A DNA stretch of 64,000 bases from Aggregatilineales bacterium (GTDB lineage: Bacteria; Chloroflexota; Anaerolineae; Aggregatilineales; Ch27): positions 62,001 to 126,000 of the forward strand of contig JARKOQ010000208.1 of the NCBI GenBank assembly GCA_029976005.1, written 5' to 3'. Positions 1 through 64,000 of this stretch are shown one piece after another. The notes beneath the pieces are model-generated. The model was given only the letters and a program-made list of their open reading frames with translations. It was not told the DNA's origin and did not search any database. Numbering within the stretch: position 1 is the stretch's first letter; every line of letters begins with the position of its first letter. The position numbers and the translations under genes are program-made.

Positions 1-454
1 CGTCCATCTGTTCCAGCGGGCCAAACTCGGAGATGCGGTAGGTGTGATTGCCGATCAAGACCTGGTCGGTGACATCCTCGACGTACAGGTAACGGTACCA
101 GTCGTCGTACCAGAAGTCAGGTCCCCAGGGGATGTCCGCGATACGCTCCACGCCCGCCGCGCCGTCAACGGCGAAGCGGATGGTATCGTCTCCGCCGCTC
201 GTCGCGGTATCGAACCCGGCCCAGTACAGGTAGGCCGCGACGACCCGCGTGCCGGGTACGTTCAGGACGATGTCTCCCGCGCCGACAGTCTCCAGACCAA
301 CACCACCTGAGACGATGGCATAGCGACCTTCGGCCGCGAAGCGCACAACCAGCGGCGCATCGGCGCGCGCCAAACCGGCGGCGGTGGCGACCAGCACCAC
401 AACCAGTGCTATGGATGCAAACTGTAGCCAACGAAGGGAATACCGCGTAGGCAT
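1..454 (-). CDS. Secreted protein of unknown function (3' end outside window)
   Basis: The leftward frame opens at an ATG at 454 behind GGGGGA (458-463) and runs off the window edge, leaving about 151 residues. The first 30 residues look like a Sec signal peptide: Arg near the start, a hydrophobic core (IALVVVLVATAAG) and a plausible cut after ARA. The mature part is beta-rich and contains VVAAYLYWAG followed by an acidic, Trp/Tyr-rich stretch (PWGPDFWYDDWYRYLY). That 'AYLYW' signature recurs in surface proteins of Chloroflexota and archaea that I cannot name more precisely. No catalytic motif is visible in this part. The gene stands alone, divergent from the AAA+ ATPase gene, and has a structured leader described separately. 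The secretion call is good; the function is unknown. Confidence 0.75.
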   Translation of the reverse strand, partial: MPTRYSLRWLQFASIALVVVLVATAAGLARADAPLVVRFAAEGRYAIVSGGVGLETVGAGDIVLNVPGTRVVAAYLYWAGFDTATSGGDDTIRFAVDGAAGVERIADIPWGPDFWYDDWYRYLYVEDVTDQVLIGNHTYRISEFGPLEQMD

Positions 455-3668: not shown

Positions 3669-3937
3669 CCCAGCCTCCCCCTGCTCAATCCAGCGTCCGC
3701 CTCTCATTGTAGCATGAGGCGGCGCGTGTCAGCCGGATGTCAGAAAAGCGGAGGCCAGAGACCGGGAGTCCAGAGGCCAGAGAAAGCGAGTCGGTATAGC
3801 CGAACCTGGATCAGAAGATCACACACTCTGTTTTTACTAATAACCGATAACTAAGAACTGAGAACTGTTTCTCGACGCCTGACGGGGCGCGTGTTACGCT
3901 TGGGGTGCGCACAATGGGAAGGATACGAGGAACAGGC
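3669..3937. repeat. Intergenic stretch with short tandem-like repeats
   Basis: This gap lies between the divergent zinc-ribbon gene and hutH. It contains two copies of AGGCCAGAGA (near 3750 and 3773) and a run of degenerate 10-mers reading CCGATAACTAAGAACTGAGAACTG (3845-3867 region). Such 'aactgagaact' runs resemble dispersed intergenic repeats. A short GAGG ribosome-binding site precedes hutH. No gene is seen. Confidence 0.4.
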
Positions 3938-53921: not shown

Positions 53922-53950
53922 TTATCTTGTATTGGCAGCGGTGCTAGAAT
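53922..53950 (+). promoter_or_regulatory. Promoter of the PAS/GAF sensor kinase gene
   Basis: An extended -10, TGC-TAGAAT (53942-53950), is preceded at 17 bases by TTATCT (53922-53927), a weak -35. The predicted leader is about 30 bases, ending in the ribosome-binding site GGAAGGT before ATG 53986. Confidence 0.6.
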
Positions 53951-53985
53951 ACAGGCGGGTTCCTGATTCACTCGGAAGGTATTTC

Positions 53986-56900
53986 ATGCCTCAGGTTCGT
54001 GTCGGCCGGTTCGATGCGCGGTGGCGGGCGCTCTTGCTGGCGGCAGGCGGGCTGTTGCTGGCAGGGTTGCTGAGCCTTGGCATTGGCGGCTACCGCAGTG
54101 TGTTGATCCGGCAGGCCCAGCGCGACCTGCGCCAGAATCAGGCGGACGCGCTGCTTCGGTTTGAGGCCGAGCTGGAAAATACGATCGACGCGCCGCTCTG
54201 GCTTCAGATGACTCTGACCGGAGCCGGCGGCTCCGATCTCCAGACGCCGGACCAGGTTTTCGAGCAGATCATGGCCGAGCGTCCCTGGATCCGGCTCCTG
54301 GCCGCGTTTTCCCCGGAAGGCGAGGTGCAAATTCATCCGGTCGGGGAGGCGGCCCTGCTGGACCGGCTGCCTCTTTCCGAGGGAGAGCCGAACGTGCCGC
54401 TGGTGGGCCGTCCGGTGGAACTCGCCGCTGGGCAGTGGCTGATTGGGGTGGACTACCTGATCCAGACCGGCGGCATGCCGCCAACCCACCTGCGAATGGT
54501 CGTGGACATCGGCTTGCTGATCGAGCGCATGCTCCGGCCTGAGTCTGGATCGGGCCTGGAGATTGGGCTGAGACTGGCTGATGGGACAGTCCTGATCGAT
54601 CCGGGCGTGTTCGAGCAAGAGCCAGTCCTGGAGTCGCTCGCGGTTCGCGCGCAGCGTTTGGAGATCGGCCTGGCGCCGGCAGGTGGATGGGCGGCCCAGA
54701 TTCAAGGGCCGCTTCTGGCGGCGATCGCCGTGACGCTCGGCTCGATTCTGCTGGTTGGCGGACTGGGATATGTGTTCGTGTCCAGGAACGCCTATCTGAG
54801 ACAGCGGACTCGAACGCTGGAGGAGCTTAACCAGGCGCTGCGCGACAGCGAAGCGCGCGCGCAATCGCTGGTGGAAATGGCTTTCGACGCGACCCTGGGG
54901 CTGGATTCCACTGGCCGCGTGGCGTTCTTCAATGCCGCGGCTCGCCAGATGTTCGGCCATTCGGCCGAGGAAGCGACTCACCTGCCGCTGGCTGCTCTGC
55001 TGCCCGCTCTGCCGCTGCCCGAGGATGGCTCCAGTCCGGTCGACGCGCTGATGCGGCTACAGCAGAGGCCGGATGCGTCCAACGCGCCGCTCGAAACCCA
55101 GGGGCGGCGCGCCGATGGCACCCGGTTTCCGGTGGAAGTCTCGATGGTCACCATGGATTGGGAGGCGGGCGAGCGCCTTGTGGTGATGAGCATTCGAGAC
55201 ATCACCCAGCGCGTGCGGCAGGCGGAAGCCCTGCTGCGCAGCGAGGCGGTGTACCGTTCCCTGGCCGAAGACGTGCTGGACAGCTCCGCCGTGGGGATTT
55301 TCATCCTGGATTCGACGTTCAGCGTGTTCTGGATCAACCAGGCCATGGAGCGCTACTTTGGTATTGACCGGCTGGAGGTGATCGGCCAGGACAAGCCGCG
55401 CCTGATCCGGGAACGGCTCCGGCAGAAATTCGAAGCGCCTGAGGAGTTCGAGGCGCGCGTGCTGGCCACCTACGCGAACAACACCTACATCGAAAACTTC
55501 GAGTGTCACATTCTGGCAGGGCCTGAGCAGGAGGAGCGCTGGCTGGAGCATTGGAGCCAGCCAATCACGAGTGGTCTGTTCGCGGGCGGCCGGATCGAGC
55601 ATTATTACGATATCACGGCCCGCAAACGGGCCGAGCACGCGCTGCTGGCGTACCAGGAGGATTTGCGCAGCAAGAGCTATTCGCTGCAAGTACTGAATGC
55701 GGTGTCCGATCTCCTCTACCAGTCTCTCGATTTTCGGACGGTGGCCCAGCAGGCTCTGAATTTCGCACAGGCCTATACCGGCGTGCCAGGGATTGCCCTG
55801 TATTTTCTGCCGGTGGAAGGCGACCAACTGCGCCTGGTGGTTTCGCGGGGCTTCTCACCGGCGATGCAGACCGTCATGGCCACGCTGCCGATGCGGAGTC
55901 TGACCGGCACTGCCGCGATCGAGGGGGAAATCCTGGTCGTCCCCGACATGATGCAGGACGATCGCACGGCGGTGACCATCCGGGACCAACTGCGGGAAGA
56001 AGGCTATGTCGGTGGGGTGTTCATCCCGCTGTTGTACCAGGGGCAAAGTCTGGGGGCCATTAACCTGCTCTACAAGGACGTCTACGAGCCGGTGCCGCAG
56101 CAGTTGGAGACGCTCGAATCGATCGCCAAGACGATCGGCGTGGCGCTTTCCAACGCGCGCTACGTGGAGCAGATCGAAGCCGAAATCAACGAGCGGGCGC
56201 GCGCCCAGGAAGCCGAGCACGAGCAGCGGATGTGGGCCGAGGTCTTGCAGGACAACGCGGCCGCGATCACCCGCACCCTGGACCTGGAGGAAGTTCTTGA
56301 CCGGATTCTGGACGGCATTCGAAGTGTCATGCCAGAGTACGAGGATGCGGTCCTCATCCTGGTCGAAGAGGGCGTAGGACGGGTCATGCGCTTGCAGGGT
56401 GAATATCCCCTGGCCTTCGACGACGATCCCTTACACTGCGATATTCAGGTGTATGCCAACCTGCGCTGGATGCACGAACACCAGCAGGCGCTGGCGATCC
56501 CCGATACAAAGGCGTATCCGGGCTGGGTGATCCGTCCGGGAACGGGCTGGGCGATGTCCAGTGTTGGGGCGCCGATCTGTATGGAAGGGGTGGTCATCGG
56601 GTTCCTGCTGCTCTACAGCGACCAGGTGGGTGCCTTTACCGATCAGCATGCCCGGCGTCTGCAATCCCTGGCGGACCAGGCCGGGATTGCCATTTCCAAT
56701 GCGCGGCTGTTTGGCGCCGTCCAGCGCCAGCGCGGGATCGACAGCGCCTTGCACGATCTCAGCATGCTTCTGAACAGTTCGCTCTCGCTGGAAGAAACGC
56801 TCGATCGGCTTCTGGCGGGGGTGCGCACGGTGGTGGCCTGTGATGCCGCCAATCTGCTGATGATCGAAGGCGATAGAGCGCGTGTCGCGCGCGCGTTGGG

Positions 56901-59358
56901 ATACGAGCAGCGCGGCCCCTTTGATCCGTTCGGCCTGGTCATCGAGATGAAAAACGCGCCTAATCTGAAGCAGGTGTTGGATCAGCGCGGCGTCCTGATC
57001 ATTCCCGATGTCACCCAGTACCCAGGCTGGCTGCCGATCGAGGGGGTGGAGTGGATCCGATCCTGGGCCGGCGTCCCCATCGTCCTGAGGGATGGCAAGA
57101 TCGCTGGCATCCTGGCGCTCGACAGCGCGTTGGCCGATGCCTACAATGATGCGCAGCGGCCCGTGCTGATGTCGTTCGCCAATTCGGCGGCGATCGCCAT
57201 CGAGAACGCGCGCCTTTTCGAGGCGGAAAAACGGGAACGTCATTTTGCCGAGGTGCTGCGCGACATCGCGCTGCTGCTCTCGTCCTCCCTGGATCGGACC
57301 AGCATCTTCACGGAAGTGCTGCATCAGGTGCGGCGCGCGCTGCCTTTCACCACGGCTGCGGTCTGGCTGCCCAGCCCGGATGGCCTGCTCAGGGCGGTGG
57401 CGACTGTCGGCTATGAGGAACTGGGCCTGTACGAACAGGTTCTTTCGCTCGCCTTTCCACCCGCCATTAATCTGTCAGACTACGGTGACCTGAAAGACTT
57501 CCCGATCGTGATCCGCCCTGACGTGCGAGATTACCCAGGATGGCGCCGCGAGCCGGGATTCGAGTGGATCCGTTCCTGGGCGGCCGTGCCATTCGTGATT
57601 CGCGGCGAGCTTGCTGGCCGCCTGACCCTGGATGGCGATCAGGTCGGCATGTATCAGACCGAACACGAGCCATTTTTGACTGCCCTGGCCCGGCAGATGT
57701 CGCTGGCGCTCCAGAACATGCGGTTGTTTGACAAAACCCAGCAGTATCTGAACCAGATGTTCGCCCTGCGCCACATCAGCCTGGAATTGGCGGCCAGCCA
57801 GCAGGCTCGCCTGGCGATTCTGGACGTGGTCGCCGACCGGTTCGTGGAGCTGCTCGACGCGGACGAACACGTGGTCTGGCTGTGGGATGGGATGGAGGAC
57901 GCGCTCTACCCGATGGCATTCCGGCGCAGCTTCGAGCACGGCGGCGAGGATCTGCCCCGGCTGGAATGGGGGGAAGGGATGCCTGGCCGGGCGCTGGCCC
58001 AGCGCCAGACCTTGCGGACCAATGCCTATGCCGGATCGGTCGGCCAGCCCGATCCGCTGCGCGGGATGCCCTATCACGCCATGCTGGCCGTGCCGATGTG
58101 GTGGCAGAATGCGCCGGTTGGGGTTCTGACGGCGGTGATGGCGCGCCCTGACCGGCGCTTCAGCGAGGACGACGAGCGCCTGATCCAGCTCTTCGCCGGG
58201 AACGTGGCTTCGGCGCTGGTCAATGCCCAGTTTTACGAGGAAATCCAGGGCTATGCCTCGACGCTGCAAGAACTGGTCGATGAAAAGACCGTGCAGCTTC
58301 AGGCCGAGCGTCGCCAACTCGATGCCATCCTGAACGGCATGGCTGAAGGCGTGACTTACGTCGAGAACGGCGTCACGCGTTACGTCAACCGGGCGTTGAG
58401 CGAGATGACCGGGTATTCAATCGAAGAACTGCTTCAGATGAGCGGGCATCCCCAACTGCTGACCCTCGGCCATGACTCCGGCCAGAGCCGGGAATACTCA
58501 GAACGACTGGCGCGCGTCCTGGCGCTGGGTGGGGTGTGGCGCGAGGAAGCGCTCCTGCGACGGAAGGATGGCAGCGAATTCGACGTCGGAGTAACCACAA
58601 CGCTGGTCAGCCCGGACCAGACAGGCAGTGGAACCGTGACGATTCTGCGGGATATCAGCCAGGAGAAAGCCCTCCAGGAACAGAAGGACCAGTTTATCGC
58701 GCATGCGTCGCACGAGCTGCGCACTCCGATCGCCAATATCAAAACCCGGCTGTATCTCTCCCGGCGGCAGCCCGAACGGCTGGAAGAGCACCTGGCGGTG
58801 CTGGACTACGTTTCGGAGCGGATGCGCCTGCTGGTGGAAGACTTGCTGGATTTCTCGCGGTTTGGCCGGGGCAAGATCACGCTGCATCTGGAGGAGATGA
58901 TCTTGCAGACGGTGATCGAGCATGCCGTGTGGGTGCTCCACTCCGACGCGGAGCAGAAGCAGATTCAACTGGCGGTCGATCTGCCGGTCGAGCCGGTCGT
59001 CGTCCTGATCGATCCGGGGCGCATGGAGCAGGTGCTGACCAATCTGGTGGCGAACGCGATCAACTATACGCCGGCCGGGGGACGAATCGCCATCCAAATC
59101 GAGCTGGAGACTCAGCCGGAGTCGCTCGTGCACGTTCGGGTGAGCGATACCGGGATCGGGATTCCGGCCGATCTGCTGGAGCATATCTTCGAGCCGTTTT
59201 TCCGCGTCAACGAGAAAGCGGTCGGCGGCACCGGGCTGGGCCTGCCCATCGCCCGGAACATCGTCCGGGCGCACGGCGGCGAACTCAGCGTGGAAAGCAC
59301 GCCGGGCATGGGCAGCACCTTCCACTTCACCCTCAAGCGCATTGTGAACCCGGAGTGA
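53986..59358 (+). CDS. Giant membrane sensor histidine kinase with three PAS and five GAF domains
   Basis: I chose ATG 53986 (MPQVRVGRF) with GGAAGGT at ideal distance; a longer TTG-started frame runs through the promoter. The protein has 1790 residues. TM1 (about 14-36) and TM2 (about 242-266) enclose a CHASE-like extracytoplasmic sensor (PLWLQMTLTG, IDYLIQ-type region). Two PAS domains (about 283-411, 421-551) precede five GAF domains (about 563-1416), then a third PAS (about 1441-1561). HisKA has H1576 (HASHELRTPI) and HATPase_c has GIGIPADLLEHIFEPFF and GTGLGLPIARN. GAF2-4 share the motif YPGW followed about ten residues later by W-x-x-S. No response regulator is nearby. It is divergent from pdhA. 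Confidence 0.9.
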   Translation: MPQVRVGRFDARWRALLLAAGGLLLAGLLSLGIGGYRSVLIRQAQRDLRQNQADALLRFEAELENTIDAPLWLQMTLTGAGGSDLQTPDQVFEQIMAERPWIRLLAAFSPEGEVQIHPVGEAALLDRLPLSEGEPNVPLVGRPVELAAGQWLIGVDYLIQTGGMPPTHLRMVVDIGLLIERMLRPESGSGLEIGLRLADGTVLIDPGVFEQEPVLESLAVRAQRLEIGLAPAGGWAAQIQGPLLAAIAVTLGSILLVGGLGYVFVSRNAYLRQRTRTLEELNQALRDSEARAQSLVEMAFDATLGLDSTGRVAFFNAAARQMFGHSAEEATHLPLAALLPALPLPEDGSSPVDALMRLQQRPDASNAPLETQGRRADGTRFPVEVSMVTMDWEAGERLVVMSIRDITQRVRQAEALLRSEAVYRSLAEDVLDSSAVGIFILDSTFSVFWINQAMERYFGIDRLEVIGQDKPRLIRERLRQKFEAPEEFEARVLATYANNTYIENFECHILAGPEQEERWLEHWSQPITSGLFAGGRIEHYYDITARKRAEHALLAYQEDLRSKSYSLQVLNAVSDLLYQSLDFRTVAQQALNFAQAYTGVPGIALYFLPVEGDQLRLVVSRGFSPAMQTVMATLPMRSLTGTAAIEGEILVVPDMMQDDRTAVTIRDQLREEGYVGGVFIPLLYQGQSLGAINLLYKDVYEPVPQQLETLESIAKTIGVALSNARYVEQIEAEINERARAQEAEHEQRMWAEVLQDNAAAITRTLDLEEVLDRILDGIRSVMPEYEDAVLILVEEGVGRVMRLQGEYPLAFDDDPLHCDIQVYANLRWMHEHQQALAIPDTKAYPGWVIRPGTGWAMSSVGAPICMEGVVIGFLLLYSDQVGAFTDQHARRLQSLADQAGIAISNARLFGAVQRQRGIDSALHDLSMLLNSSLSLEETLDRLLAGVRTVVACDAANLLMIEGDRARVARALGYEQRGPFDPFGLVIEMKNAPNLKQVLDQRGVLIIPDVTQYPGWLPIEGVEWIRSWAGVPIVLRDGKIAGILALDSALADAYNDAQRPVLMSFANSAAIAIENARLFEAEKRERHFAEVLRDIALLLSSSLDRTSIFTEVLHQVRRALPFTTAAVWLPSPDGLLRAVATVGYEELGLYEQVLSLAFPPAINLSDYGDLKDFPIVIRPDVRDYPGWRREPGFEWIRSWAAVPFVIRGELAGRLTLDGDQVGMYQTEHEPFLTALARQMSLALQNMRLFDKTQQYLNQMFALRHISLELAASQQARLAILDVVADRFVELLDADEHVVWLWDGMEDALYPMAFRRSFEHGGEDLPRLEWGEGMPGRALAQRQTLRTNAYAGSVGQPDPLRGMPYHAMLAVPMWWQNAPVGVLTAVMARPDRRFSEDDERLIQLFAGNVASALVNAQFYEEIQGYASTLQELVDEKTVQLQAERRQLDAILNGMAEGVTYVENGVTRYVNRALSEMTGYSIEELLQMSGHPQLLTLGHDSGQSREYSERLARVLALGGVWREEALLRRKDGSEFDVGVTTTLVSPDQTGSGTVTILRDISQEKALQEQKDQFIAHASHELRTPIANIKTRLYLSRRQPERLEEHLAVLDYVSERMRLLVEDLLDFSRFGRGKITLHLEEMILQTVIEHAVWVLHSDAEQKQIQLAVDLPVEPVVVLIDPGRMEQVLTNLVANAINYTPAGGRIAIQIELETQPESLVHVRVSDTGIGIPADLLEHIFEPFFRVNEKAVGGTGLGLPIARNIVRAHGGELSVESTPGMGSTFHFTLKRIVNPE

Positions 59359-59540
59359 TCCAGGTCGCCCGCCGGCTCAACTGGATAGTCTCCCCGACAA
59401 TTCGAAGACGATATTTCTTGTAGAACTCTTATTTTGTTTCCTCCTAAAACTGTCTAGAATGTTGAGCGATGGCCCGGCCAGAACAGCGTGCCCGGCCGGG
59501 GGCCTGGGATTGTGCGTGGCGCGGCATTCTGGAGGATGGC

Positions 59541-59990
59541 GTGTATACCTTGCTTCTGACTCTGCATTCGTTGGTCCGCTGGCTGGTGGTGATCGCAGCC
59601 GTCGTCGCGGTGATCCATGCCTGGACGGGCTGGTTGGGCAAGCGGCCGTGGACTTCGCTGGCCGACCGGCTGGGCCTGATCTTCACCGTGGCTATGGACG
59701 TGCAGCTCTTGCTGGGGGTGATTCTGTACTTCATCAGCCCGCTGATTCAGGGTGCGTTCGCCGACTTCGGTCAGGCGATGGCGACGTCCGGGGTGCGCTT
59801 CTTCGCGGTGGAGCACGTCGCGTTGATGATCGTGGCGGTGATTGTCGCTCACGTGGGGCGGACGCTGGCAAAGCGCGCCCAGACCGGAGAGGCCAAATAC
59901 AAGCGGGCCGCGCTGCTGTTTACGCTGGCGGTGGTGCTGGTGCTGGTCGCGATCCCCTGGCAGGCGCGTCCCCTGTTCCGGCTGGGATAA
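59541..59990 (+). CDS. Four-helix membrane protein, cytochrome b-like
   Basis: I start at GTG 59541 (VYTLLLTLHSLVRW) because GGAGG lies six bases upstream; a longer ATG-started frame has no ribosome-binding site. The 149-residue protein has four predicted membrane helices. Conserved-looking polar residues within or next to them are LHSLVRW, DVQLLLGVILYFISP and VRFFAVEHVALMIVAVIVAHVGR (two His). Similar proteins are often annotated 'cytochrome B', based on His pairs that might bind haem, but there is no proof of haem binding. A TAGAAT -10 lies at 59455-59460. It ends 94 bases before the convergent B12 regulator gene. Confidence 0.7.
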   Translation: MYTLLLTLHSLVRWLVVIAAVVAVIHAWTGWLGKRPWTSLADRLGLIFTVAMDVQLLLGVILYFISPLIQGAFADFGQAMATSGVRFFAVEHVALMIVAVIVAHVGRTLAKRAQTGEAKYKRAALLFTLAVVLVLVAIPWQARPLFRLG

Positions 59991-60083: not shown

Positions 60084-61085
60084 TCAAAGATTTTCGAGCA
60101 ACTGCGCCAGAGTCCCCATGCCTTCCTGCAATGTTTCGCCCAGATAAACCCCGGACACGCGCTCGCGCCAGGCCGGCTCCTGGGTGAAGATGCGCCCTCC
60201 GAAACACACCACGGGATGTCCGCTCTCGGCGGCTTCAGGCAGCCAGCGTGGCCAGTCCAGCAGATTGCGAGCCGTTTCCTCGCGCATGGCGATCAGCACC
60301 ACGACTGAGGGCTGGGTCTCATCGACGAAGGCGGCCAGATCGGGCAGGGGCAGCGACTGGCCCAGGTAGGTCACGGGCCAGCCCTGGCGGCGCAGGAGCA
60401 CGCCCAGCATCAACAGACTGCCCTCGTGGAATTCGTCCGGCGCGCAGGCCAGGATAACGGGCGCGGCCGAGCGCGGCTGCGGGCCGGTGGCCATCCACAT
60501 CAGCAGCCGGTGGCGCAGGAAATTGCTGGCCAGGTGCTCGACCGCCACATTGATCGTACCGTCCCGCCAGGCTTCGCCGAGGTCGGCCAGGGTGGGCTGG
60601 ATCAAGTCCAGGATCAGACTTTCCAGGGGATAGAGGGCCAGGGCTTCGCCCAGCAGACGATCGGCTTGCTGGGTGTCGGGGACGAGCAGCGCCTCGGTCA
60701 ACTGGCGGCGGTAGGAAGCCAGCGAGGTGTCGACGGGGTAGGGCGCGGGGGTGGGCCGCTGGACCAGGCGGCTTGCCGGAGCCGCCGGAAGGGCGGCGCT
60801 CAGGCGATTCTCCTGCTCCAGGTGCTGGAGGGCGCGGATGGCCCGTCCGGTCTGCATCCCTTCGTCGATCCGGGCCTTGATCCAGCGCAGGCGAAGGATC
60901 TCCTGTTCGGAATACAGGCGGTGGCCGCCGCCCGTGCGGGCCGAGCTGGGGAAGCCGTAGCGGCGTTCCCAGACGCGCAGCGTGGCGACCGGGATATCGG
61001 TCATGCGGGCGACGACGCCGATGTTGTAGAGCGGCTCGTCACTGGGGTCTTGCGATTTGGGTGGGATCATGGTTGGATACATCAT
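60084..61085 (-). CDS. MerR-type regulator with B12-binding domain (CarH/LitR-like photoreceptor)
   Basis: This 333-residue regulator has an N-terminal MerR helix-turn-helix (YNIGVVARMTDIPVATLRVWERRYG, with RTGGGHRLY, about 20-58). A helical cobalamin-cap domain has the CarH signature W173-x9-E183-H184. A Rossmann B12 domain follows with H220 in DEFHEGSLLMLG as candidate lower axial ligand. The 36-residue spacing from H184 to H220 is close to that in Thermus CarH. CarH with adenosylcobalamin represses in the dark and is released by light. It is divergent from an oxidoreductase operon, with an inverted repeat between them. ATG 61085 has a poor ribosome-binding site. Confidence 0.9.
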   Translation of the reverse strand: MMYPTMIPPKSQDPSDEPLYNIGVVARMTDIPVATLRVWERRYGFPSSARTGGGHRLYSEQEILRLRWIKARIDEGMQTGRAIRALQHLEQENRLSAALPAAPASRLVQRPTPAPYPVDTSLASYRRQLTEALLVPDTQQADRLLGEALALYPLESLILDLIQPTLADLGEAWRDGTINVAVEHLASNFLRHRLLMWMATGPQPRSAAPVILACAPDEFHEGSLLMLGVLLRRQGWPVTYLGQSLPLPDLAAFVDETQPSVVVLIAMREETARNLLDWPRWLPEAAESGHPVVCFGGRIFTQEPAWRERVSGVYLGETLQEGMGTLAQLLENL

Positions 61086-61137: not shown

Positions 61138-61201
61138 TGTCAAGATAATCTATACAAAAAATCTCCAATATCTTGACGTTACTTGATCAGAATGTTATCA
61201 T
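61138..61201. promoter_or_regulatory. Divergent promoters and inverted-repeat operator at the CarH-like locus
   Basis: Leftward TTGACA is at 61143-61138 with a weak -10 (TAAGCT) after 17 bases. Rightward TTGACG (61173-61178), a 17-base spacer and TATCAT (61196-61201) form a good promoter. An inverted repeat TCAAGATA (61140-61147) and TATCTTGA (61169-61176) overlaps both -35 boxes. It is an obvious candidate operator for the adjacent regulator. A further TTGAC copy lies at 61214. Confidence 0.7.
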
Positions 61202-61469
61202 GAAAATCGTATTTTGACAATAATGATAGAAAAACGCCGGTCAGGGATATGCGGCGGGAATGGATGCCCCTGGCCTCGCGCGGCCGGCCGCGCCGGCCAC
61301 GGTTCATTGTTTGCGCGGTATGGCGTAGAATGAGACTAACGCCAGACGCGCCCAAGACTCCCTTTGGCTGGAAACAGGCCGGACTCTGATTGCCCGGACG
61401 GAGCAAGGGCGTCTTTTTGCCGGAACGAATGAACAAGTCCTGATCGCTCTTTTCACAGGAGGCAGTCGC
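61202..61469 (+). promoter_or_regulatory. Leader of the TIGR01777 operon with terminator-like hairpin
   Basis: This stretch completes the 384-base divergent gap. It contains the GC palindrome GGCCGGCCGCGCCGGCC (near 61290), a second -10-like TAGAAT (61326-61331), and a long hairpin. Its arms are AGACGCGCCC (61344-61353) and GGGCGTCT (61407-61414), followed by TTTTT. The hairpin could be an attenuator. AGGAGG precedes ATG 61470. I looked for a cobalamin riboswitch and did not find its B12 box. Confidence 0.4.
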
Positions 61470-62405
61470 ATGCGTGTCGTGATCACTGGAGGGACGGGCC
61501 TGATTGGCCGCGCGCTGGTGAACAGCCTCGCCGCGGATGGGCACGAGGTTGTCATTCTCAGCCGCAGCCCCGGCAATGCGGTCCGGTTGCCGCATGGGGT
61601 CGAAGCCGTGTTCTGGGATGGGCACTCCGGGGCGGGCTGGGCCGACCGGGTGGATGGCGCGGGGGCGGTGGTGAACCTGGCGGGCGAGTCAATCGGCGGG
61701 AGCGGGTTCTTCGACGTGCGCTGGACGCCCGGCCGCAAGAAGCGTATCTACGAGAGCCGGATTCAGGCCGGGCAGGCCGTGGTGGAGGCGATCAAGGCCG
61801 CGAAGAACAGACCCGGCGTGCTCGTCCAGGCCTCGGCGGTGGGCTACTACGGCACGGAGACGGGCGACACGGACGTGACCGAAAGCGCCGACCCGGCCAG
61901 CGACTATCTGGCCGAGATTTGCGTGGCCTGGGAACGCTCCACCGCGCCGGTGGAGAAGCTCGGCGTGCGGCGGGTGATCCTGCGCACGGGGGTCGTGCTC
62001 AGCACCCGCGGCGGCGCGCTGCCGCGCCAGATGTTGCCCTTCAAATTCTTCGCGGGCGGCCCGGTGGGCAGCGGCCGGCAGTGGTACCCCTGGATTCACA
62101 TCGCCGACCAGGTGGCGGCGATCCGCTTCCTGATGGCTAATGAAGAAGCCAAAGGCGCGTTCAACCTGTCCGCGCCAAATCCCCTGACCAACGCCGAATT
62201 CGGCAAAGCCATCGGCCGGGCGATCGGCCGGCCGTCGTTCCTGCCGGTGCCAGCGGCGGCGTTCAGACTGCTGTTTGGAGAGGCATCGGTCATCCTGCTC
62301 GAAGGTCAGAAGGCCGTGCCCCGGCGGCTGCTGGACCTGGGATTCCAGTTTCAGTTCCCTGAGGCCGAGGCCGCGATCCGCGACCTGGTGGAGACGAAGC
62401 GATGA
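61470..62405 (+). CDS. TIGR01777 family SDR epimerase-like protein
   Basis: ATG 61470 follows AGGAGG. The 311-residue protein is an extended short-chain dehydrogenase with the NAD(P)-binding loop [10 protein letters not shown] (7-16). The Ser-Tyr region SAVGYYG and [23 protein letters not shown] are the family's hallmark. C-terminal [19 protein letters not shown] is also typical (YfcH-like). The substrate is unknown in all members. It is the first gene of a rightward operon with SRPBCC and FAD-oxidoreductase genes, divergent from the CarH-like regulator. This gene set recurs next to light/B12 regulators, so light-induced protection or pigment metabolism is plausible. Confidence 0.93.
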
Positions 62406-62842
62406 AGTACGTCCACCGCTTTCGCGTCCGGGCCGGGCGGGAGGCCGTGGCGACCTTCCATAGCAGCGCGGCCAGCCTCAAAGCCATCACCCCGCCGCCG
62501 ATTGTGATGCGGGTTCACGCGGCCCCGGCCCATCTGGGCGAAGGCGACACGATGGATTTCACGATGTGGCTGGGGCCGATTCCGGCGCGCTGGGTGGCCC
62601 GGATTGAGGATGTGAGCGAGGCGGGCTTTGTCGACCGGCAGATCAGCGGGCCGTTTGGCGCGTGGGTCCACCGCCACACCTTCCAGCCGGTGGACGAGCT
62701 GACCACCGACGTGCTGGACGAGGTCACGGCCGAACTGCACCCGGCCCTGGGCTGGAAGCTGATCGGGCTGGGGATGTGGTTGGGGCTGCCAATCCTGTTT
62801 GCGTTCCGGGGATGGAAGACGCGCCGGATTTTGGAAAAATGA
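62402..62842 (+). CDS. SRPBCC family protein
   Basis: The 146-residue protein starts within the stop of the preceding gene (ATGA overlap), so the two are translationally coupled. It has a START/polyketide-cyclase-like fold: [22 protein letters not shown] at the first strand, a central [20 protein letters not shown], and [19 protein letters not shown]. It continues into a long C-terminal helix that may touch the membrane ([16 protein letters not shown]). Such proteins bind hydrophobic ligands. In this operon it could handle a lipid or carotenoid intermediate, but this is inference. Confidence 0.88.
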
Positions 62843-62884: not shown

Positions 62885-64000
62885 ATGCATAAAATCGTCG
62901 TGATTGGCGCGGGCGTGGGTGGGCTGACGACCGCTGCCGTGCTGGCCCGCGCCGGGTTGGACGTGACCGTCCTCGAATCGCATATCTATCCGGGCGGGTG
63001 CGCCGGGACGTTCTTTCACAAAGGCTACCGTTTCGAGGTCGGGGCGACGCTGGCCGGCGGGTTCTACCCCGGCGGCCCGATGGATCGCGTGGCCCGCGCG
63101 GCCGGGATTGAAGCCTGGCCAGCCCACGAATCGAACCCGGCGATGATCGTCCACCTGCCGGATGGGGCGCGGGTGCCGCGCTGGACGGACGATGCCCGGC
63201 GTGAAGCGGCTCACCGGGAAGCGTTTGGGACGGCCGGGGACTCCTTCTGGCGCTGGCAGGAGCGCACCGCCGACGCGCTGTGGGCCCTGGCCTTGCGCCT
63301 GCCGCCCTGGCCGCCGCAGACGATCGGGGAGGCGCTGCGCCTGGCCGGGCACGGGTTGGGCTGGCTGGGCGAGGATGGACGCCGGATCGATCCGGGGCTG
63401 GCGGCGGATGCCTTCCGCCCGGTAGCGGCCCACCTCAGGAACGCCCCGGAGCGACTGCGCCTGTTCGTGGATGGGCAGCTTTTGATCTCTGCCCAGACGA
63501 CGAGCGGTTTCGCCAATGCGCTCTACGGCGCGTCGGCGCTCGACCTGCCCCGGCGGGGCGTCGTCCATCTGGAGGGCGGGATCGGCCGCATCGCGGAGGA
63601 GCTGGCGGCGGCGGTGACCCGGGCCGGCGGGCGGGTGATCCATCGCCAGCATGTCACGCGGATCGTGCGCGAGGGTGGGCGGCCGGTGGCGGTGGAAACG
63701 AAGCGCGGCGATTCTTTCCCGGCGGATGTGGTGATTGCCAACCTGCCGCCCTGGAACATCGCGCCGCTGCTGGCCGGGGAGGATGGCCGGGGCGATCTGC
63801 CCCCGGCGCTGCGCCGCCTGTCCCCCCAGCCGGAGGATGGCTGGGGCGCGTTCGTGGTCTATCTGGGCCTGGATGGCGGTCTGATCCCGGCCGACTTCCC
63901 GCTGCACCACCAGGTGATCGCGCGCGAGCCGTTGGGCGAGGGTAACACGGTTTTCCTGTCGCTCAGTCCGAACTGGGATGCAAGCCGCGCGCCGGCCGGG
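62885..64000 (+). CDS. FAD-dependent oxidoreductase, phytoene desaturase/CrtISO-like (3' end outside window)
   Basis: The frame opens at ATG 62885 and stays open for 372 codons to the window edge. The N-terminus has the Rossmann FAD motif [20 protein letters not shown] (residues 5-24) and the [13 protein letters not shown] segment typical of the carotenoid desaturase/isomerase and related amine-oxidase-like families. [21 protein letters not shown] and [15 protein letters not shown] also fit. The enzyme may saturate, desaturate or isomerise a polyene. Its exact family cannot be fixed without the C-terminus. It follows the SRPBCC gene by 42 bases and is part of the CarH-linked operon. Confidence 0.85.

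Follow-up and report, generated by a model that had tools for sequence, protein, structure and literature searches.

The carH-like gene and the divergent operon

The window, by which we mean the whole 64,000-nucleotide stretch of Aggregatilineales DNA analysed here, contains near its end a short intergenic region from which a carH-like gene and an operon are read in opposite directions. The features of the locus are:

60084-61085, minus strand: carH-like gene, 333 aa, with MerR DNA-binding, B12-binding four-helix and Rossmann domains (Pfam)
61120-61115, minus strand: -10 box of the carH promoter, TAAGCT, weak (3/6); a sequence reading, the offset being kept as a -10 in 28 loci
61143-61138, minus strand: -35 box of the carH promoter, TTGACA, the mirrored half-site, overlapping the left palindrome arm
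61140-61147, plus strand: left palindrome arm, TCAAGATA, overlapping the carH -35
61147-61157, plus strand: 11-bp repeat 1, AATCTATACAA, TATACA, a full TnnACA (register peak -22)
61158-61168, plus strand: 11-bp repeat 2, AAAATCTCCAA, TCTCCA, 3/4 of TnnACA (register peak -11)
61169-61179, plus strand: 11-bp repeat 3, TATCTTGACGT, TTGACG, holding the right arm and the operon -35
61169-61176, plus strand: right palindrome arm, TATCTTGA, within repeat 3
61173-61178, plus strand: -35 box of the operon promoter, TTGACG, inside repeat 3
61196-61201, plus strand: -10 box of the operon promoter, TATCAT, after a 17-bp spacer (promoter scan; offset conserved in relatives)
61470-62405, plus strand: gene 1, SDR-family oxidoreductase (TIGR01777, 337 bits, above cut-off)
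62402-62842, plus strand: gene 2, 146 aa, no family match
62885-64000, plus strand, running beyond the window: gene 3, CrtD-like carotenoid desaturase/isomerase-type flavoprotein

The regulator is matched in Pfam by MerR_1 (55 bits), B12-binding_2 and B12-binding. Its closest solved structure is Thermus thermophilus CarH (5c8d, E=2.6e-36), and the top PDB matches of its AlphaFold model (AF2 pLDDT 85.9) are all T. thermophilus CarH, led by 5c8e, the DNA-bound form, and 5c8d; the B12 domains superpose with an rmsd of about 2.3-2.7 Å. These domains and structure matches bear out the first-pass annotation of a CarH-like locus, in that the gene encodes a member of the CarH-type B12 photoreceptor family. 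No second gene of this kind was found in the genome, the assembly of which is 82% complete.

The RxWERRY recognition helix is present as LRVWERRY, with W39, E40, R42 and Y43 invariant in 15 sequences. W173, E183, H184 and H220 are invariant in the same number of sequences, preserving the lower-ligand histidine and the Wx9EH motif that separates CarH from CarA, in which it is lost (PMC9304148). The classic B12 motif is D/ExHx2G/P...SxT/V...GG, and the light signature comprises GxxW, EH, GxxH and GxxxP (PMC11796333). The window protein has ExH (His220), GxxW, EH, GxxxP and GG; it departs in the SxT/V serine, which is replaced (LIAM), and in GxxH, which reads DxxH. The best-scoring NCBIfam model is the CarH equivalog NF052513, at 171.7 bits and thus below its cut-off of 400. 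Given this score and the SxT/V departure, we name the protein CarH-like and infer its light control. The same departures and score would also suit a relative that does without B12, as CarA does, or that is insensitive to light, and that works through this operator with no light control. Such a regulator is improbable, however, since Wx9EH and the lower-ligand histidine are intact and invariant, the divergent operon with its photolyase and carotenoid enzyme is what light control would predict, and the genome has a gene for a cobalamin adenosyltransferase. By analogy with characterised CarH, the protein would bind AdoCbl, oligomerise in the dark and disassemble in the light. A second, longer CarH-like subfamily also occurs in the class (L024-L029, L032 and others), with open frames of 440-490 aa, a C-terminal extension of ~120 aa and two tandem repeats, TTGACAAACATTGAACA, at the promoter of its own gene.

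On the other side of the intergenic region, the plus strand continues past the window with genes for a lactate dehydrogenase, an aldo/keto reductase and a DNA photolyase. The photolyase gene (L005:7402-8829, ~66401-67828 in window numbering and beyond the window end) closes the run that starts with the SDR gene. Their close spacing suggests that SDR-crtD-ldh-akr-photolyase form one transcript. From its gene content, this run is a plausible light-protection operon, and its control by light may join carotenoid modification with light-driven DNA repair. The leader of the SDR gene (61208-61470) is G+C-rich and, at ~260 nt, unusually long, exceeding that of most relatives. An RNA element in this leader was considered and rejected, as no Rfam family matches it and its folding is no better than that of shuffles (z -0.81). 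Elsewhere in the window, a plus-strand gene (53932-59358) encodes a histidine kinase of 1808 aa that carries about five GAF domains and three PAS domains, and just downstream of it (59469-59990) lies a 173-aa protein that matches no family.

Mirrored promoters and the tandem repeat array

The first-pass annotation had drawn attention to an inverted repeat between the minus-strand carH-like gene (60084-61085) and the plus-strand operon that starts at 61470, each arm of which was said to overlap the -35 box of one of two divergent promoters. Both points hold. The palindrome TCAAGATA-N21-TATCTTGA is exact, occurs once in the window and is found in 0/100 dinucleotide shuffles, and its arms overlap TTGACA (61143-61138) and TTGACG (61173-61178). 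The carH promoter reads TTGACA-N17-TAAGCT, with a perfect -35; its -10 matches at only 3/6 positions, which accounts for its absence from the list of the promoter scan. In relatives, a good -10 stands at this position, its key letters (T, A and the final T) being kept in 89-96%. The operon promoter, TTGACG-N17-TATCAT (61173-61201, plus strand), scores 10/12 and has an extended TG. The additional TTGAC-like half-sites that had been proposed exist as sequences (TTGATC at 61183-61188 and TTGACA at 61214-61219), but a conserved counterpart was sought in related carH promoters and none was found.

What would CarH read at this site? The known operators of CarH consist of 11-bp units in tandem, each of the form nnnnTnnACAn (PMC9304148). 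The window carries such an array at 61147-61179, made of one full TnnACA and two 3/4 repeats (one letter is off in repeat 2 and one in repeat 3) and overlapping the operon -35; in the terms of PMC9304148 it has one DR and two drs. On its upstream side, the array stops 3 bp short of the carH -35 hexamer, and the repeats between the mirrored outer hexamers all share one orientation. The registers of each arm were scored against TnnACA (maximum 4) across the 28 related loci that have a mirrored pair. For the operon-facing arm, the mean scores are 3.00 at -11 and 2.82 at -22, with all other offsets at or below 2.07. The -11 repeat scores 3/4 or better in 21/28 loci, and the -22 repeat does so in 15 of the 21 loci that have a spacing of 28-30 bp. 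Behind the carH-facing arm there is no array, with 0 full repeats at -11. Thermus and Meiothermus loci served as a positive control: in most of them the scanner recovers the arrays that are expected there, which face carH.

In 28/39 carH promoters from related Anaerolineae, the arm that faces the operon forms the final unit of a tandem TnnACA array with an 11-bp pitch, and it is this head-to-tail array, instead of the palindrome, that forms the conserved protein-facing feature. The palindrome appears to be largely the conspicuous end of an ordinary CarH-type array together with the mirrored -35 of carH itself. It would stem from the double role of TTGACA, which is the -35 consensus and also fits the TnnACA repeat, and from the placement of the two -35 boxes in mirror image at a fixed distance.

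Spacing and conservation in relatives

Conservation in relatives had been set beforehand as a test capable of overturning the palindrome, and the geometry withstands it. The sample consists of the upstream regions of 39 related carH genes from Anaerolineae (L020 and L063 are one genome and were counted once). The mirrored -35 geometry is strongly kept, an inverted TTGACA pair being found upstream of carH in 28 of the 39, against a mean of 0.19 loci and a maximum of 1 of 39 in resampled upstream regions. The pair is absent in 11/39, including the same-order genomes G166 and G282. The distance between the -35 boxes is 29 bp in 15 loci, 28 in four, 30 in two, 18 in six and 17 in one. A step of 11 bp separates the two spacing classes (28-30 and 17/18). 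Loci of the 18-bp class do not form a single clade: the class arose at least twice, and parsimony places about four changes on the tree.

The surroundings of the pair are far less constant. Its distance to the start of carH similarity varies widely, from 72 to 316 bp, and the divergent partner may be an SDR, crtI, crtB, aldo-keto reductase, lactate dehydrogenase or NmrA-like SDR gene (partners were named by resemblance to the window operon or to known families, with family libraries run for part of them only). Since both the distance and the partner gene vary, the module is kept by constraint and not merely by recent descent.

On another reading, the palindrome would be merely two back-to-back consensus -35 boxes with their spacing set by polymerase crowding, and CarH would act elsewhere. 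Both hexamers are indeed close to the -35 consensus, and each has its -10 box after 17 bp. Nevertheless, we consider this most unlikely. The TGTCAA-N-TTGACA spacings of same-order genomes that lack this CarH are scattered, with two N29 among the matches listed (G003:C137 and G225:C28), and in genomes with CarH most of the N29 cases among the matches listed are the carH promoter. Moreover, crowding leaves the conserved TnnACA repeats between the boxes unexplained.

A dyad operator would call for a recognition sequence symmetric about the dyad and conserved as an inverted repeat. On this point the locus points both ways: the outer hexamers are mirrored at a fixed spacing and the arm flanks co-vary, but the repeats that lie between run in a single orientation. 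The inner four bases, which flank the -35 hexamers, agree within loci more often than expected (57 vs 41.4, p ~1.5e-4); shifted registers lack such an excess, one outer control pair (+14..17) gave p=0.008, and kinship among the loci is only partly controlled in this test. As the arm flanks co-vary, the mirrored half-site may also be bound, and the quantised spacing likewise points toward a contact there. Alternatively, the array may need a fixed face relative to the carH -35 in order to exclude polymerase.

The fourth DNA-binding domain of the CarH tetramer is unbound in the T. thermophilus structure. It is possible, although we hold the idea only tentatively and would not expect it to prevail, that the operator is a hybrid of two or three head-to-tail 11-bp cells and one inverted cell, namely the -35 of carH itself. 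In its four-cell form, with three direct repeats and one inverted cell, the fourth domain would grip this -35 in flipped orientation and shut the carH promoter while the other domains shut the pigment/photolyase operon, so that both promoters would be locked in one complex. A hybrid operator comes close to the initial idea of a palindromic site, with the cells now held at whole repeat-unit steps. Spacings that fall at 29 and 18, a step of one 11-bp unit, the matching inner four bases and the persistence of the mirror geometry while partner genes change all speak for an inverted cell. Against it, CarH is known to bind head-to-tail repeats, the flank match must be set beside the signal in the outer control pair and the partial control of relatedness, and carH transcription needs a -35 box at this position anyway. 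There is also the precedent of CarA, for which inverted repeats once proposed proved not to be the feature recognised (PMC9304148).

Proposed regulation of the locus and comparison with known systems

The array pattern (at most one mismatch) occurs at three places in the 4.76-Mb genome. The first is carH, and the second lies 40-70 bp upstream of crtI-crtB-lycopene cyclase. This second locus (L125, G000:C103, 1026-6318) comprises a cytochrome P450 gene, a 148-aa ORF and crtI-crtB-lycopene cyclase, with the three-repeat array before crtI. The third (G000:C159:31713-31740, L126 ~3714-3741) is a good three-repeat array between genes, with no obvious target, and is treated as a possible chance match. 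Among relatives with this CarH, arrays scoring 11-12 of 12 are found upstream of crtI in L158, L159 and L167; scores in 10 crtI upstreams from genomes without it are at most 9. A convincing crtI array was not found in the upstreams of L160, L162-L166, L168, L170, L171 and L173, and control of crtI is therefore not universal. The three-repeat pattern with one mismatch was also tried as a definer of the regulon across relatives and rejected as too loose, its counts being comparable in genomes with and without this CarH. The palindrome, which the first-pass annotation had suggested seeking at other loci, fares worse than the direct repeats in the genome search: TGTCAAN{10,40}TTGACR gives four places other than carH, with spacings of 10-23 and none at N29, and the palindrome thus marks no regulon.

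The reading we favour, with a probability of about 0.7, is that AdoCbl-CarH bound to the array in the dark represses both promoters and that light or missing B12 releases them. It draws on the protein family, the array and its register, their conservation, the quantised spacing and the similar array before crtI-crtB-lycopene cyclase. Binding by the protein, its oligomer state, the shutdown of both promoters and their response to light and B12 are predicted by analogy with known CarH proteins. Weighing on the other side are the imperfect repeats 2 and 3, the weak carH -10, the 11 relatives without the mirrored pair, the departures in the B12 motif and the equivalog score below its cut-off. In the dark and with adenosylcobalamin, a presumed CarH tetramer would fill the three repeats at 61147-61179. 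On repeat 3 it would mask the operon -35, and the array-bound protein would sterically exclude RNA polymerase from the carH -35, the hexamer of which ends 3 bp away. Both promoters would then be off and carH would limit its own expression. Light would break the Co-C bond, the oligomer would fall apart and both promoters would open; without B12, both would remain open. The earlier proposal that a single bound complex could shut both promoters is hence plausible and the layout suits it, with the array in place of the palindrome as the site.

If this is true, a B12 light sensor controls from one site both itself and a whole light-protection operon, including a carotenoid enzyme and a DNA photolyase. 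Such one-site control would operate in the mostly uncultured Anaerolineae, through a promoter-operator module that survives exchange of its partner genes. The 11-bp quantised spacing offers a testable handle on how a head-to-tail tetramer may act on two promoters that point in opposite directions. As a tool, the module could provide a compact bidirectional green-light switch.

A close parallel comes from Sorangium cellulosum, whose crtI and carH diverge from a shared promoter region (P crtSc1) in which one DR and two drs make up the only CarH site (PMC9304148). There, crtI and carH are both repressed in the dark with B12 and released by light, and the one footprinted site is considered to act on both promoters (PMC9304148). 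As in Sorangium, carH of the window diverges from a carotenoid gene, the divergent promoters overlap, and one full and two imperfect repeats are present. In contrast, the window belongs to another phylum and has a photolyase in the operon as well. A mirrored -35 geometry kept across many genera and quantised at 29/18 bp is not described in the available part of PMC9304148. With T. thermophilus CarH (5c8d/5c8e), the window protein shares the fold and the signature residues, and the operators share three tandem 11-bp repeats that include a -35; His132 beside the tryptophan in T. thermophilus corresponds to Arg174 in the window protein. Across the Thermus and Meiothermus loci that were compared, the array is mostly directed toward carH, and the mirrored -35 pair is absent. 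The P crt operators of Myxococcus and Cystobacter, which are bound by CarA/CarH, are again tandem 11-bp repeats including the -35; they differ in having a single promoter, five repeat units, a dimeric CarH in Cystobacter and the CarS antirepressor. In these operators too, inverted repeats were spotted first and later shown not to be the recognised feature, and the present locus repeats that lesson: a striking inverted repeat at a CarH/CarA promoter can conceal a direct-repeat operator.
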